Source: a virus | Virus record (IMG/VR): IMGVR_UViG_3300036800_000051 | Span: 1-41,981 of that record | Length of the DNA stretch: 41,981 bases | Reading direction: 5' to 3' (one strand) | Program-made: the position numbers and the translations under genes | In this document: one piece after another, positions 3,014 to 28,712 of the stretch | Layout: each line of letters opens with the position of its first letter | Numbering within the stretch: the first letter of the stretch is position 1 | The notes under the pieces: generated by a model | Databases searched by the model: none | What the model saw: only the letters and a program-made list of their open reading frames with translations | Told to the model about the DNA's origin: nothing

Positions 3014-3123
3014 AACAGGCCTCGGCATTCGGGACATGGCAGCATCAGGCCGGACCATTCGCCGCGAGCGCCACACACCCGGCACCAGCGAGGAAGAGTT
3101 GGGGTGAAATCGCCGGCGGTCAC
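3010..3123 (-). CDS. 37-aa zinc-ribbon microprotein
   Basis: GTG at 3123 overlaps the upstream stop as GTGA, and its own TGA overlaps the HNH start as GTGA (3010-3013). The 37-residue product carries WCRVCG and PCPECRG, two CxxC pairs 16 residues apart, as in a minimal zinc ribbon. Longer starts in this frame run through unrelated sequence and are less likely. Function unknown; its place next to nuclease genes suggests a nucleic-acid or protein adaptor role. Confidence 0.6.
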   Translation of the reverse strand: MTAGDFTPTLPRWCRVCGARGEWSGLMLPCPECRGLL

Positions 3124-3530: not shown

Positions 3531-3993
3531 TCCGGCTCACCGTCACCCGACGCTCACGCTCAGCGGTACGAGCCAACCCATTCACCGTCTCAGCGATCGG
3601 ACCGCCGAGCTTTCTCAAAGCCGTAATCCCCGCCTTCCGCGTCTTGTACGAAATAATTGTCTCGACGGCGGCATCCACAGCTTCGACGCTCAACCGGCCC
3701 GCGTCCACATGCTCCAACAGCGCCTGACGCAGTTCTGCGCCATCCCATTCTTCTGACGGCGCCGGCGACTGGCCAACGATCTTCAATTCATCGGCACGCA
3801 GGGTCCATGAGGCCTCGCGATCCATGCGGGACAGGAGTTCGCGGGACACGAGTCGCTTGAACTCGCGCAGCACACTTTCGAACTCGCGCAGGTCCGCAAG
3901 ATACCGGCCCAGCTCCGGGCTGGGACTATCAAGGCTCAGCGGTTCCCCGGTAGCCGGGTTGACGAGCTGGGTGGATGGTTGAATGTCGCTCAT
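3523..3993 (-). CDS. Uncharacterised helical early protein
   Basis: 156 residues. A short N-terminal tail (LVNPATGEPLSL) precedes a long helical region with many charged residues, including LREFESVLREFKRLVSRELL and a C-terminal KTRKAGITALRKLGGPIAE segment. No known motif is visible. Its start codon shares one base with the stop of the upstream gene (TGATG at 3991-3995). With the coiled-coil protein downstream it forms a pair that could act as a complex, for example as DNA-binding or nuclease-modulating factors; this is speculation. Confidence 0.7.
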   Translation of the reverse strand: MSDIQPSTQLVNPATGEPLSLDSPSPELGRYLADLREFESVLREFKRLVSRELLSRMDREASWTLRADELKIVGQSPAPSEEWDGAELRQALLEHVDAGRLSVEAVDAAVETIISYKTRKAGITALRKLGGPIAETVNGLARTAERERRVTVSRNG

Positions 3994-4181
3994 CAGATCG
4001 TCTCGAAGTCGTCGTTATGAACGATCACCAGTGCGCCGCGAAGGTCGAGAACGCTCGTGCCGGGAAGCTGGTGCGGCGTGACGAACGTGCCCGCCCAACC
4101 AGCCATCGCGCTCCACTGGTGGCTGGGCTGATCGACGATCCGTACCGGCGTGCCGTAAGCAAGCGTGAGAGCGTCGGTCAC
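3993..4181 (-). CDS. Uncharacterised 62-aa protein
   Basis: GTG at 4181 overlaps the upstream stop as GTGA (4178-4181). The product has a beta-like pattern: PVRIVDQPS, WAGTFVTPHQLPG, SVLDLRGALVIVHNDDFE. This looks like a small SH3-like or beta-barrel fold that ends in acidic residues. The frame is open further upstream to 4484, but that part is Arg/His-rich shadow of the neighbouring gene, so the short version is preferred. No function assigned. Confidence 0.6.
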   Translation of the reverse strand: MTDALTLAYGTPVRIVDQPSHQWSAMAGWAGTFVTPHQLPGTSVLDLRGALVIVHNDDFETI

Positions 4182-4945: not shown

Positions 4946-5100
4946 CTGTATCTCCAGTGGCCACAGCTGCGGCACTTGTCGATATCCCAGCCATCAAAGT
5001 CAAGATTGGTTGAGCCGCACGCCTCGCAGCACACGATGGACTTCCCATCGTCATCAAGAGCCACGGGGGCGAATCGCGGTTCCCGATCGCGATTGCTCAT
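4942..5100 (-). CDS. 52-aa zinc-ribbon protein
   Basis: The start is ATG 5100, forming ATGA with the methyltransferase stop (5097-5100). The product has IVCCEACGSTNLDFDG and DKCRSCGHWRYR, two CxxC pairs with a Gly-x-x-Asn turn, the layout of a zinc ribbon as found in ribosomal or transcription-factor microproteins. Because it follows the methyltransferase directly, it may help that enzyme bind DNA, or act alone. That link is only positional. Confidence 0.65.
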   Translation of the reverse strand: MSNRDREPRFAPVALDDDGKSIVCCEACGSTNLDFDGWDIDKCRSCGHWRYR

Positions 5101-5621
5101 TGCGATAGCTCCAGCTGGGCGTCGAAGCGCTCCCACGCGTCGCTGACGGCGTGCGAGCCAGGGAACAGATCCTCGAACTCGTCGCCCGGCCGAGCGCCAA
5201 GCCACCGGAACAGCCACGAGCAAAACGCGGGCGGCTTGCTACCAGTGACGTAGCCCTCAGGCTTGGGACGAAACGTATATTGCTCGGGCGAGCAGACAAG
5301 CGTGTCTCGAAGGTTGCTCGCGGGAGGGCGGGCCCAGCGCACAACGACGGGCTCCCAGCCAAACACGCCGTGACCACTCATCGGTGGGGCGATCGGTTTG
5401 TGCCACGACAGAATGCGCACGTCCGACGGGCAGCAGCCAAGCACCTCTTGCAGCCCCCGGTTCGACGTGGACAGTGCCCAGCCGTCGAAGTGACTCAGCG
5501 TGCCCTCGATCAACTCTAGGTGGTCGACCTCACCCGCATAGTCCGGATGGTCGCCGTAGTGACGTTTCGCCTGTCCCGGGTACGGCGGGTCGGCGTAGGC
5601 AAGGAGCCTCCGCTCGCTCAT
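5097..5621 (-). CDS. DNA methyltransferase, DPPY type
   Basis: 174 residues. The N-terminus gives YADPPYPG, the DPPY motif IV of N6-adenine or N4-cytosine methyltransferases at residues 11-14. The C-terminal part, GSKPPAFCSWLFRWLGARPGDEFEDLFPGS, resembles the motif X/I region in a circular permutation, as in MT-A70-like or phage ParB-associated enzymes. The substrate is DNA with S-adenosylmethionine as methyl donor; the likely role is to shield phage DNA from host restriction. No target-recognition domain is present and there is no paired restriction gene. ATGA overlaps on both sides place it in the operon. Confidence 0.85.
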   Translation of the reverse strand: MSERRLLAYADPPYPGQAKRHYGDHPDYAGEVDHLELIEGTLSHFDGWALSTSNRGLQEVLGCCPSDVRILSWHKPIAPPMSGHGVFGWEPVVVRWARPPASNLRDTLVCSPEQYTFRPKPEGYVTGSKPPAFCSWLFRWLGARPGDEFEDLFPGSHAVSDAWERFDAQLELSQ

Positions 5622-5743: not shown

Positions 5744-5949
5744 CGCACAGCCTCCAGCTTTTTGGCCTCGACTGGCCCGTTGGGAGCCCAGAGCGTTGCC
5801 GCTTTCTTCTCGGGCCAGCCCGCGCCGGGGTCCCACGGATCCTCAGCAGCCTCCCCGGCGTAGTGATCTCGTGTGCAGACCAGCCGCACTCCGAACCAGG
5901 TTGCGTGATCACCGAGCTTGTAGTGGTGCGGGACACGCCACTCGCTCAT
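5740..5949 (-). CDS. Uncharacterised 69-aa protein
   Basis: Begins at ATG 5949 (ATGA overlap at 5946-5949). The sequence is rich in Trp, His and Tyr: MSEWRVPHHYKLGDHATWFG, then LVCTRDHYAGEAAEDPWDPG, then a basic C-terminus. It may form a small beta-rich domain. The frame is open to 5985, but that extension is Gly/Arg-rich and lies outside the overlap logic. No family recognised. Confidence 0.55.
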   Translation of the reverse strand: MSEWRVPHHYKLGDHATWFGVRLVCTRDHYAGEAAEDPWDPGAGWPEKKAATLWAPNGPVEAKKLEAVR

Positions 5950-6128
5950 CCTCGCCTCCAGTCGTAAGCCTCGGCCTCCCAGCACTGCTCCAGCAAAATC
6001 AGCTCCAACCGCCGCTCATCCTCACGCTGGCGACGCCGGTCAATCCAGTCGCACAGGCCGAAGATCGCCAGGACAGCCAGGATCGGAGCGAACGCCCAAA
6101 CCACAGCAATCGCGAGCGGAGTGCTCAC
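5946..6128 (-). CDS. 60-aa single-span membrane protein
   Basis: GTG at 6128 forms a GTGA overlap with the preceding gene's stop (6125-6128). Residues about 4-26 (PLAIAVVWAFAPILAVLAIFG) make one hydrophobic span. A basic then acidic helix, DRRRQREDERRLELILLEQC, follows, likely cytoplasmic. Small inner-membrane proteins of this type in early operons may alter host physiology or block superinfection; nothing in the sequence decides this. Confidence 0.6.
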   Translation of the reverse strand: MSTPLAIAVVWAFAPILAVLAIFGLCDWIDRRRQREDERRLELILLEQCWEAEAYDWRRG

Positions 6129-25934: not shown

Positions 25935-27221
25935 TCAGGTGCGAACCACTGGGACGTCGTCGTTGATGTTGATGAACTTGCCGTTCCGGTTCGGAGCGAC
26001 ACAGGTCAACACGGCATCCCAAACCATCCAGGCTTGCCACACGCGAGCCTTCGTGCCCAGCGACGAGCCGTCCTTGAGATACAGGATCGAGCCCTTCCCA
26101 TCAGGCGCTTCGAGCCAGTCCGGGGGGCCGAGCTGCGCCCACGCGAAGGACTGCTTGTTGATCAGGAATCCCTGGCCGGCGGGGCAGTCCACGTCGGCGA
26201 GCATCGGGATCGGTGTCCCACCCGCGGACACGGGGATTGCTCCCGCGTACCCGCCTTCGGGCTTGGTGACATTCCCGTCGTTCCAGCGCATCTGCGACGT
26301 GAACGTGTTTGCCAACCGGCGCTGACCTCCGAGGGTCAGCATCCCGAGTTCCGGGGTTTTCCCGGACCGCTGACGGATCGTCTGCGCCAACGCCATGATC
26401 CCGTCCGTCGAGGGGTTCGCCTGACCGAAGTCCTTGACGTTCGAATCCCAGAACGGGTTGGTGGACGAGTTGATCTGATGCAACGTCCGAGACGTCGAGC
26501 AGATGTTGCGCAGCCCGTCGGACTCCTGGGAGCGATCCCCGGAGACATACACCCCGTAGGTGTTATCGACGCTGATCGCCGCACCCGAGATCGTCACGTT
26601 CGCGACCGTCTGGTTGGCCGACGCCGGAGCACCCGTATAGGCGACCGCGGTGACGGTACGGCCCACCGCACCCGTGCCCGTGGCTCCCGAGGAACGAACG
26701 ATCACGTCGATCGGATCCCCGACCGCGACGAACTGACCCGAGTCCACGGCGAACGTGTTCACGGTCGCCTGGGTGGTCGTGCAGGACGCCAGGAGACCGT
26801 CCCCGGTGCCGTACACGATCCGGGTGACATCCTTCTTCATGTCCGTCAACGCCAGGTCCATTTCGAACGTGAGGGTCCGCACAAACGACCCCTCATCGGA
26901 CTTGGACTGCTTGATCGCCTGGTCGGACAGCTCGATGCCGGTGTCGAAATACTTCATTCCGACGATCCCGTCCAATGTGCCCTGCGTCCCCGCGGTGGCG
27001 AGCTGGCCGCCGTCGGTGACCGCACCACGCCCGCGGTTACGGGAGCTGTGGACCGGGAAGATCAACTGCCGGCCGAACCCGGTGAACGTGCCCAGCTGGT
27101 TCGCGTCGGTCTTGGTGATGATGTCGAGCATCTGGGTTTCCTGGTTGAGCTGCTCAACCCAAGGACCCCTGTAGACGTTTTTGAGCAGGGCGTCTACCCC
27201 TGTTAGGTTCTGCGTCGCCAT
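25935..27221 (-). CDS. Major capsid protein, HK97-like fold
   Basis: 428 residues. Helical N-terminal arm (MATQNLTGVDALLKNVYRG, WVEQLNQETQMLDIITK), then FGRQLIFPVHSSRNRGRGAV, the typical region before the E-loop. A central A domain follows with an Ala/Thr/Gly-rich insertion (AVDSGQFVAVGDPIDVIVRS). The C-terminal part is KTPELGMLTLGGQRRLA, and CVAPNRNGKFININDDVPV. It is preceded by a scaffold gene and followed by a terminator. The insertion at residues ~150-230 may be an I-domain-like or surface-exposed beta domain. Confidence 0.8.
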   Translation of the reverse strand: MATQNLTGVDALLKNVYRGPWVEQLNQETQMLDIITKTDANQLGTFTGFGRQLIFPVHSSRNRGRGAVTDGGQLATAGTQGTLDGIVGMKYFDTGIELSDQAIKQSKSDEGSFVRTLTFEMDLALTDMKKDVTRIVYGTGDGLLASCTTTQATVNTFAVDSGQFVAVGDPIDVIVRSSGATGTGAVGRTVTAVAYTGAPASANQTVANVTISGAAISVDNTYGVYVSGDRSQESDGLRNICSTSRTLHQINSSTNPFWDSNVKDFGQANPSTDGIMALAQTIRQRSGKTPELGMLTLGGQRRLANTFTSQMRWNDGNVTKPEGGYAGAIPVSAGGTPIPMLADVDCPAGQGFLINKQSFAWAQLGPPDWLEAPDGKGSILYLKDGSSLGTKARVWQAWMVWDAVLTCVAPNRNGKFININDDVPVVRT

Positions 27222-27243
27222 TTAGGCATCGCCTCTTTTCTTG

Positions 27244-27291
27244 GTACAGCGCTAGGGATTCATTGACTTCATGACCGCCCTAACGCTGTAC
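27244..27291 (-). promoter_or_regulatory. 14-bp hairpin before the capsid gene
   Basis: GTACAGCGTTAGGG pairs with CCCTAGCGCTGTAC (minus strand, 27291-27278 and 27257-27244) with one G-T wobble and a 20-nt loop, about 23 bases before the capsid ATG. No T-run follows. Its first arm overlaps the GCGTT arm of the adjacent RNA element, so the two folds exclude one another. Confidence 0.6.
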
Positions 27292-27343
27292 GCGAGATCC
27301 CCTGGCCCGTGAAGGCTGTAGAAGCGCCCTGGCGTTGGTTGGT
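27282..27343 (-). ncRNA. Scaffold-flanking RNA element, copy A
   Basis: Minus strand: CACCAA (27343-27338), stem AACGC (27336-27332) paired with GCGTT (27286-27282), CAGGG directly inside the 5' arm and CGTACA ending at the 3' arm. Copy B before the scaffold gene has GACGC/GCGTC instead, a compensatory change. The middle differs in sequence. It sits between the scaffold and capsid genes. Confidence 0.5.
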
Positions 27344-27354
27344 GCTGGTGCTGC

Positions 27355-28194
27355 TTATGCGCGATTGGAGTTCCTGAGGAACTCGATCGCTGCGTCTGTA
27401 ACGCGAGGATCCTCAATCGACTTGTGCTGCTCCGGGCTTACGTCCGGAACCCCGCCCGTCTCCGCGGGTGCGGGAGCGTCGACCTTGCCTTGCAGAACCG
27501 TTTTCTCATACTGGTTCTGCCACCGCTGAAGATCATCGTAGGCGCGGGGGATCGCGTTCATCGGATCAGACTCGATGTAGCGTCCCGCGAGCGTGTTGAT
27601 CAGCTCCTCGGTGTCCTTGTCAAACTCTCCGTGCTTGCCTTTCAGCTCGGAGAGTTGCCCTTCGATGAACTGGCTCGCCTCGGCCATCGCTGCCTGCTGA
27701 TCCTGCTGCTGGAAGCGACCGTCATACGCTTCGAACTTTGACATCAGCGGGCCGAGCTTGTCTTCCAGCAGCTTTTCGAACTGCTGTTGCGACGGGTCCT
27801 GAAACCCGTAGTCGTCCTGCTGGTCTTGCGGCTGCTGTTGTTGCTGCTGCTGGTCGGGAGTCAGCCCGTTTGCTTGGGAATAGCCTTCCCACCATTGCTT
27901 CATCGCCTGCGGATCAGCCATCGCCTGGAACAGCTGCACCGCATATGAAGCATCTTCCGGAGATAGCTGGCTCACCCCGGTTTCCGAGAACGGCTCCCAC
28001 TGCTTGCGGAACTCGGCCTGGTCCTGGAACCGTTTGGTTACCTGACCATCCCAGTCTCGGAAAACGGGCTCCACGTCGCCGCGAAGCTCCTCCGGGATTC
28101 TGTCGAGATACTCCTGGTAGGGAGCACCTTGTGTGCCTGGATCGCCCTGGCCCTCTTCGGGCTGTACGTCATCGGCGGGATCAGTGACGGACAC
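27355..28194 (-). CDS. Capsid scaffolding protein
   Basis: 279 residues from GTG 28194 (GAGGAG ribosome site eight bases upstream). The protein is very acidic and Gln-rich, mostly helical, with a poly-Gln run (DQQQQQQQPQDQQ) in the middle and a helical C-terminal third (QFIEGQLSELKGKHGEFDKD, NTLAGRYIESDPMNAI). Its location immediately before the major capsid gene, and this composition, are typical of scaffolding proteins that guide procapsid assembly and later leave. No protease gene is adjacent. Confidence 0.75.
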   Translation of the reverse strand: MSVTDPADDVQPEEGQGDPGTQGAPYQEYLDRIPEELRGDVEPVFRDWDGQVTKRFQDQAEFRKQWEPFSETGVSQLSPEDASYAVQLFQAMADPQAMKQWWEGYSQANGLTPDQQQQQQQPQDQQDDYGFQDPSQQQFEKLLEDKLGPLMSKFEAYDGRFQQQDQQAAMAEASQFIEGQLSELKGKHGEFDKDTEELINTLAGRYIESDPMNAIPRAYDDLQRWQNQYEKTVLQGKVDAPAPAETGGVPDVSPEQHKSIEDPRVTDAAIEFLRNSNRA

Positions 28195-28210
28195 CCATCA
28201 CTCCTCTCTC

Positions 28211-28271
28211 GACGCTGTAGCGTGCGGCTGTGGCCTTGGCTCCTGGCCGCTGCCCCTGGCGTCTATTGGTG
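28211..28271 (-). ncRNA. Scaffold-flanking RNA element, copy B
   Basis: Minus strand: CACCAA (28271-28266), GACGC (28263-28259) paired with GCGTC (28215-28211), CAGGG after the first arm, CGCTACA before the second, and an inner GCGGC/GCCGC stem. It ends just upstream of the scaffold ribosome site (GAGGAG). See copy A at 27282-27343. Confidence 0.5.
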
Positions 28272-28276
28272 TTGGG

Positions 28277-28465
28277 CTACTTCTCGGAAGCTTTGCGAAT
28301 GAGACGCTGAGCCTTTTTCTCCGCGCCATTCAGGTCCTTCGGCTCCGGCCCTTCGTCCTCGTCGGCGACGTCTTTGCGCTGAGCGGTTTTCAGCTTGTCC
28401 AGCGCGGACTGCACGTCGGCGATGAGAGCGTCAACGTCCTTGTCTTCGGTGCTCTCAGTTGCCAT
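28277..28465 (-). CDS. Small acidic helical protein
   Basis: 62 residues, highly charged: MATESTEDKDVDALIADVQS, then a helix LDKLKTAQRK, an acidic run (DVADEDEGPEPKD) and a basic tail (EKKAQRLIRKASEK). The sequence looks disordered or helical only. Situated before the scaffold gene, it could be a minor scaffold or assembly accessory. Function not determined. Confidence 0.55.
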   Translation of the reverse strand: MATESTEDKDVDALIADVQSALDKLKTAQRKDVADEDEGPEPKDLNGAEKKAQRLIRKASEK

Positions 28466-28712
28466 ACACGCCCCCGGTGATCTTCACCGTCGACCGGCCC
28501 TGAGACTGCAACCACAACGGCCCCGTCGTGAATGCCTGCGAGCTGCCGACCGTGATCGGGGTTGACGGACCGTTCAGCGCCGTCAAATAGTTCAACGTTG
28601 CCGCCGAACCCGTGATGTTCGCGACCGTGACCGTGTCCCCCGGGTTGATCTGCACCGGAACGAAATCGGACTGGTCAGAGTCGTTGTCGCCAATGTCGAG
28701 CTGGAGGCCCAT
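28455..28712 (-). CDS. Stand-alone spike-anchor-like beta protein
   Basis: 85 residues, all beta-type: VPVQINPGDTVTVANITGSA, VGSSQAFTTGPLWLQSQGRS, TVKITGG. It shares a plan with the N-terminal ~85 residues of both spike genes (33721-36855): a V-P-I/V-x-P start, G-S-A/T-x-x-V-x-N/T, S-Q-x-F-T-x-P-x-W-L, then V-x-V/I. It may be the virion-side partner or a free copy of that anchor domain. ATG 28712 overlaps the upstream stop by one base (TGATG). Confidence 0.6.
   Translation of the reverse strand: MGLQLDIGDNDSDQSDFVPVQINPGDTVTVANITGSAATLNYLTALNGPSTPITVGSSQAFTTGPLWLQSQGRSTVKITGGVYGN

Follow-up and report, generated by a model that had tools for sequence, protein, structure and literature searches.

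A repeated internal-loop RNA unit at phage scaffold and capsid genes, a candidate autogenous operator co-varying with a scaffold residue

The DNA analysed here, called the window, is the whole 41,981-nucleotide stretch of a viral record (IMGVR_UViG_3300036800_000051), for which no close direct DNA similarity was found among known phage records. A gene on its minus strand, located between the portal and capsid genes, is taken here as the scaffold gene from its position and shape. The features considered below are as follows, in the direction of transcription.

28263-28211, minus strand: scaffold-leader element with terminal stem P1 GACGC/GCGTC, from the sequence and homologous elements in relatives
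28258-28255 and 28218-28216, minus strand: outer loop of the scaffold-leader element, CAGG opposite ACA, from the sequence
28245-28242 and 28231-28229, minus strand: nested second unit of the scaffold-leader element, CAGG opposite ACA, from the sequence
28201-28210, minus strand: Shine-Dalgarno (SD) stretch of the scaffold gene, GAGAGAGGAG, from the sequence, directly adjoining P1 of the putative operator
27355-28194, minus strand: putative scaffold gene, 279 aa with a GTG start, from the open reading frame list and its place between the portal and capsid genes
28168-28143, minus strand: third unit, in scaffold codons 9-18, CGUACA GCCC GAAGA GGGC CAGG GCG, encoding VQPEEGQG
28050-28048, minus strand: Asp49 codon of the putative scaffold gene, the residue co-varying with RNA loop base 3
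27336-27282, minus strand: capsid-leader element with terminal stem P1 AACGC/GCGTT, from the sequence
27331-27328 and 27289-27287, minus strand: loop 1 of the capsid-leader element, CAGG opposite ACA, from the sequence
27319-27317 and 27304-27301, minus strand: loop 2 of the capsid-leader element, ACA opposite CAGG, from the sequence
27244-27291, minus strand: alternative 14-bp hairpin, arms 27291-27278 and 27257-27244, from fold, conservation, covariation and energies
27230-27237, minus strand: SD stretch of the capsid gene, from the sequence
25935-27221, minus strand: major capsid protein gene (PHROG 14242 'major head protein', E 2.8e-53)

Family searches assigned the putative scaffold gene to no scaffold family, and its homologues in Arthrobacter and Microbacterium phages belong to PHROG 33339, a family of unknown function. 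The protein was modelled as all-helical, with residue 49 inside helix 35-70 (pLDDT around 90 there). Fold searches with this model recognised no known RNA-binding fold and returned no solved structure resembling it.

An earlier note on this DNA had described an RNA element before both genes. Both leader elements are indeed found on the minus strand, and the observation extends further than first noted. Each leader of the window contains a joined pair of units, nested in the scaffold copy and mirrored in the capsid copy. The covariation of the terminal stem between the two copies (GACGC/GCGTC versus AACGC/GCGTT) also stands. In contrast, the CACCAA that was counted as part of the element is not kept in relatives, and the third unit, within the scaffold coding sequence, was absent from the earlier list. 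The elements and leaders of the window alone do not fold much better than shuffled sequence (z -0.66 to -2.0). Thus, the window by itself is weak evidence for an element, whereas together with the comparison the evidence is far beyond chance.

Comparison of relatives defines the unit as an internal loop, 5'-[C/U]A[G/A]G opposite AC[A/G]-3', flanked by two short helices, P1 and P2, with the consensus nnnGC[C/U]A[G/A]GGCC-loop-GGUAC[A/G]GCnnn. Among 44 core units the covariation score was 0.416, compared with 0.133 for shuffled units (none of 500 shuffles scored as high), and 64 cells were changed on both sides of the helices, compared with 20 in shuffles, with both helices covarying. Because the units were selected by a pairing criterion, of which only the two outer P1 pairs are free, the paired fraction of the inner pairs is inflated. 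Loop base 1 and the final base of the opposite strand occurred as C.A in 36 units, U.G in 18, U-A in three and A.A in one, and never as C-G, as expected of a wobble geometry. No scaffold residue tracked this position beyond lineage signal, which is consistent with an internal wobble pair. The G.U pair at the base of P2 is nearly invariant (42 of the 44 core units).

A strict scan for the unit in 114 related loci gave 2.97 per kb in scaffold leaders, 2.15 per kb at the start of the scaffold coding sequence and 2.21 per kb in capsid leaders, with a background of 0.04 per kb elsewhere on the sense strand and 0.01 per kb on the antisense strand; the enrichment in these three places is roughly 50-70-fold over the rest of the sense strand. 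A single-unit covariance model built from the 44 cores (R1) had 54 matches in 70 related loci, 52 of them on the sense strand, and its matches in 61 bacterial control loci were split evenly between the strands. R1 scores the two-loop copies of the window weakly (14.3 bits), and its search of the window's own genome came back empty, so that it is the two-loop relatives and the unit scan that place the window in the family. No match at the curated threshold was obtained with Rfam 15 for the window and 15 relatives, where sub-threshold chance matches covered short stretches only. A metabolite riboswitch was considered and set aside, given the lack of an Rfam match and the occurrence of the units only before phage scaffold and capsid genes, although a new ligand class is conceivable. 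A degenerate pattern matched more than 120 sites across unrelated bacteria; these look like chance, and some were reused as controls. The capsid profile detected no relatives in bacterial genomes.

The units are mostly intergenic and promoter-like sites often lie just upstream, which might suggest an element acting at the level of DNA, such as a recombination, packaging or transcription factor site. We give this reading hardly any credence, since the strong bias toward the sense strand, the C.A/U.G wobble covariation without C-G, the near-invariant G.U pair and the direct contact of the operator with the SD all indicate action as RNA.

Searches with the capsid protein provided sets of 12, 36, 80 and 22 related viral loci, referred to by L numbers. 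Isolated relatives include the Arthrobacter phages Brad, Jasmine and Casserole, the Microbacterium phage Shocker and the Cellulosimicrobium phage DS1, whose capsid proteins are 26-31% identical to that of the window, and relatives keep the order of portal, scaffold candidate and capsid genes. The unit precedes the putative scaffold gene in about 70 divergent phages, isolated ones included, at a distance of 15-24 nt from the start codon, and almost all relatives of the window's clade that could be read carry the scaffold-leader element. Where a phage has a simple unit, the distance from the 3' end of this unit to the scaffold start downstream is in most cases 13-24 nt and often 18, and in phages with several units, these span the SD and the early codons of the scaffold gene. 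A conserved RNA structure is therefore found at the translation start of the putative regulator's own gene, which is what defines an autogenous operator by location. The isolated phages carry a minimal form with a single hairpin, GAGU-CAGG-GCC...GGU-ACA-ACUC in Brad and CGC-UAGG-GCC...GGU-ACG-GCG in DS1. No clear leader unit was found in the Manatee Spring phages ctEqG8 and ctLwi270.

Leaders contain one, two or three units depending on the phage. Chains of three or more units were observed in the scaffold leaders of L092 (5048-5123), L093 (5025-5098), L330, L333 and L348, and L088 repeats the complete element in tandem within its scaffold leader (4963-5027 and 5081-5138).

A promoter-like site ending 8-17 nt upstream of the operator was seen in 15 of 67 phages, compared with a control rate of 0.5%; phages with such sites include L241, L249, L265, L270, L290, L293, L309, L313 and L325. 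With a promoter just before it, the operator would form the 5' end of the scaffold-capsid mRNA, and these sites suggest a dedicated scaffold-capsid mRNA beginning at the operator in those 15 phages. No promoter-like site was found before the operator of the window.

A mirrored unit also lies in scaffold codons ~5-18 of many relatives, where it encodes [V/A]QPx(E)GQG. In L079 and L037 both arms of this unit change together through synonymous codons (CAA/CAG for Gln, GGT/GGC for Gly). The Val before QP is encoded by GTA in 19 of 19 cases, compared with 218 of 1014 elsewhere. Furthermore, for the Gln of GQ[G/D/E], CAGG phages use CAG in 32 of 34 motifs, whereas nine of the ten CAAG phages having this motif use CAA at its first occurrence (the exception being L418), although the other Gln codons of CAAG-phage scaffold genes are CAG and CAA in a ratio of 252:39. 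As judged from this codon usage, the unit in the coding sequence is under selection at the RNA level.

At the third base of the loop most phages have G, whereas about twelve lineages have A. The switch between CAGG and CAAG is concerted across the units within a phage (L089, L332, L337 and L348), and where these phages have the unit in the coding sequence, it is also CAAG like the leader units. Such a concerted change indicates a common, phage-specific factor acting in trans.

When all columns of the scaffold and capsid proteins were scanned against loop base 3, scaffold position 49 stood out. In CAGG phages this residue is Asp in 69 and Glu in 11, so that all 80 have an acidic residue, whereas in CAAG phages it is Asn in three, Gln in three, Ser in two, Glu in three and Asp in one (L301). 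In eight of ten CAAG lineages position 49 carries a residue that no CAGG phage has; among 637 columns the runner-up reaches four of ten, and none of 300 permutations of pseudo-labels gave a maximum of at least 8. On a tree of the capsid protein the RNA base changes 10 times, and residue 49 follows in seven of eight supported independent pairs and never in the opposite direction (p 0.016). In CAAG phages that were found after the correlation had been noticed, residue 49 is S, S, Q, E and L, Asp occurring in none of the five. The pairing of Asp or Glu with G and of Asn or Gln with A is ordinary hydrogen-bond logic. There are exceptions: L301 has Asp alongside CAAG, and members of the L252 group have Glu, a residue also present in G phages.

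Close relatives of L301, whose unit lies at about 3028-3056, are L291 and L292 (89% capsid identity), which have CAGG and Asp; the combination in L301 may be of recent origin or may contradict the contact proposed. Many relatives in which no leader unit could be recognised lack the Asp region or have something else in its place; L302 and L321 have Asp at this place, though a leader unit was not found there by eye. In L287-L289 and L295, which lack a leader unit, the Trp-Asp motif is retained, and a possible large unit, UCC-CAGG...ACA-GGA, lies inside the start of the scaffold coding sequence.

The co-evolution with residue 49 suggests, at the level of sequence comparison, that the scaffold protein is the RNA binder. 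The capsid protein was rejected as the binder, since no capsid column follows the RNA base and L348 and L330, with capsid proteins 99% identical, differ in the RNA base as well as in residue 49. DNA identity between these two phages is 0.68-0.87 between positions -75 and +224 relative to the scaffold start, a stretch that takes in the operator as well as the N-domain where residue 49 lies, whereas the flanks are mostly at 0.92-1.0. As this pair illustrates, the RNA and the scaffold N-terminus are adjacent and can recombine together, so that a different binder, either another phage protein or a host ribosomal or RNA-binding protein, could be imagined with residue 49 following by linkage only. 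However, linkage would favour many N-domain columns, whereas a single one stands alone (8/10 versus 4/10); the change recurs in about ten lineages; and a change from D/E to N/Q/S makes chemical sense for recognising A in place of G. In addition, the phage-specific loop sequences would find no explanation in a conserved host factor. We therefore regard a different binder as unlikely.

Considering the co-evolution with a scaffold residue, translational self-control by the scaffold seems a better reading than the one proposed in the earlier note, and we think it likely that the element is an autogenous translational operator, which the scaffold would bind to repress its own translation. Free scaffold would bind the units around its own ribosome binding site, in the leader and often in codons ~5-18, and the bound scaffold would block translation initiation, so that scaffold synthesis would drop as unassembled scaffold accumulates. 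The side chain at position 49 would contact loop base 3, Asp or Glu with G, and Asn, Gln or Ser with A. Both the physical binding and the repression are what we infer from the arrangement and co-evolution of the units. Alternatively, the scaffold may bind the RNA in order to nucleate assembly or to activate, by gathering scaffold and coat at their mRNA, and not to repress; the presence of units within the coding sequence and ahead of the capsid gene, as well as the chaining of two or three units, would fit such a role. This appears improbable, though, because the conserved distance to the SD and start suits steric control of initiation, while a nucleator needs none.

The capsid copy is found in the window's clade and in L083 and L085. 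Others lack it, among them L066/L086, where the capsid protein is 81% identical and the scaffold copy is kept. From this distribution the capsid copy appears to be a derived, clade-specific addition, and the scaffold leader the primary site. The alternative hairpin of the window, including its GCGTT arm, exists as the earlier note had drawn it; this arm also belongs to the capsid operator. The hairpin, which stops 22 nt short of the capsid start codon, is much more stable than shuffled sequence (z -5.16). It is present in about 10 of the 12 members with a capsid copy (weak in L075 and L076), which agrees with the proposal of mutually exclusive folds in the capsid leader. Its arms change together (GCGTTAGGG/CCCTAACGC and GCGTCAGGG/CCCTGACGC), and it ends 13-22 nt before the capsid start across relatives. 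In the ten phages tested, the hairpin was favoured over P1 of the operator by 6-17 kcal/mol. The hairpin would consequently be the default fold, and the scaffold could act only through early or tight binding. The scaffold copy has no alternative hairpin.

Several capsid leaders differ in form. In L064 (4213-4270), as in L065 and L095, the hairpin loop is large and contains a repeated CAGTCACTGT-like sequence. The distant relative L326 has a mirrored unit, UGUACAGCCCCUAAGAGGGUCAGGGCA, in its capsid leader and no unit in its scaffold leader, an independent capsid copy. In L083 and L085 the hairpin is absent and a short ORF lies between the capsid-leader operator and the capsid gene (about 25 codons, within 3989-4160, in L083; about 19 codons, within 5820-6000, in L085). 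In L083 the ORF stops after the capsid SD and ahead of the capsid start, much as in translationally coupled genes. Control by coupling would fit this arrangement. A leader peptide, MKSMNP, in the hairpin loop of the window was also considered and is not kept in relatives.

The earlier note had interpreted the element as a processing site, attenuator or ligand switch setting the ratio of scaffold to capsid, which needs no binding by the scaffold. Its emphasis on the scaffold-to-capsid balance and on exclusive folds holds, and the bistable capsid leader with its strong, conserved hairpin speaks for it. The attenuator part is not supported: there is no terminator-like site on the coding strand, and a G+C-rich stem followed by a T-run was not found on the minus strand in 27200-28500. 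Nor did the analysis give any sign of a processing site. Moreover, the widespread copy is that of the scaffold, without the alternative hairpin, and the co-evolution with a scaffold residue would be left unexplained. Control without scaffold binding is accordingly a very improbable account of the element.

Under autogenous control by the scaffold, the window's clade would have a second operator in the capsid leader, where the P1 arm competes with the stronger hairpin beside the capsid SD. Free scaffold, probably binding during RNA synthesis, could hold the operator fold and prevent the hairpin, and capsid translation would thereby be tied to the level of free scaffold. As the bases immediately before the SD would become unpaired on binding, we lean weakly toward raised capsid synthesis, that is, toward activation of the capsid gene by the scaffold. 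A more general proposal, which we consider possible but somewhat short of an even chance, is that a widespread class of dsDNA-phage scaffolds are sequence-specific RNA binders with a readable position 49, forming a homeostat that would match scaffold to coat through the scaffold's own mRNA and, in the window's clade, through the bistable capsid leader.

How phages set the ratio of scaffold to coat is an old question, for which a concrete RNA unit and a partner residue are now at hand. With these, the CAGG/CAAG variants and the cultured phages carrying the unit (Brad, Jasmine, Shocker and DS1), the question becomes directly testable. If the proposal is true, tools for tethering or regulation would gain a new RNA-protein recognition pair, whose G and A forms are possibly orthogonal. 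No publication describing the element was found in a literature search, outside of which lies a survey of 224 candidate structured RNAs.

Among known systems, the scaffolding protein of phage P22 reportedly regulates itself, as Wyckoff and Casjens are said to have found in 1985, the unassembled scaffold lowering its own synthesis. The scaffold of the window is likewise predicted to lower its own synthesis when unassembled, but it has no detectable relation to the P22 scaffold. To our knowledge, neither an RNA operator motif nor a recognition residue is known for P22, and a literature search found no described operator for this self-control, whereas an RNA unit, a repeat architecture and a recognition residue are predicted for the window's family. 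In the RNA phage MS2, as in R17, the coat protein represses translation by binding a small hairpin that covers a ribosome binding site; the MS2 operator, a single hairpin marked by a bulged A and a motif in its loop, controls the replicase and not the gene of the coat protein itself. The predicted system of the window resembles it in combining a virion-assembly protein, a small hairpin and repression of translation, and differs in that its unit is a repeated internal loop, on the protein's own mRNA, in dsDNA phages. Ribosomal-protein leaders are RNA structures near the SD that are bound by the gene product, as is predicted for the leader structures here, but the window's family shows no rRNA mimicry, involves no ribosomal protein and belongs to no Rfam family. 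T4 gp32 is an autogenous translational repressor and a sequence-independent binder of single-stranded DNA (Virol J 2004, PMC535899). The window's scaffold would share with it autogenous translational repression by a phage protein, unlike gp32 through a structured internal loop that seems to co-evolve with the protein in a base-specific manner. In summary, autogenous control by phage assembly proteins is of a known kind, while the RNA unit, the protein family and the recognition position appear to be new.
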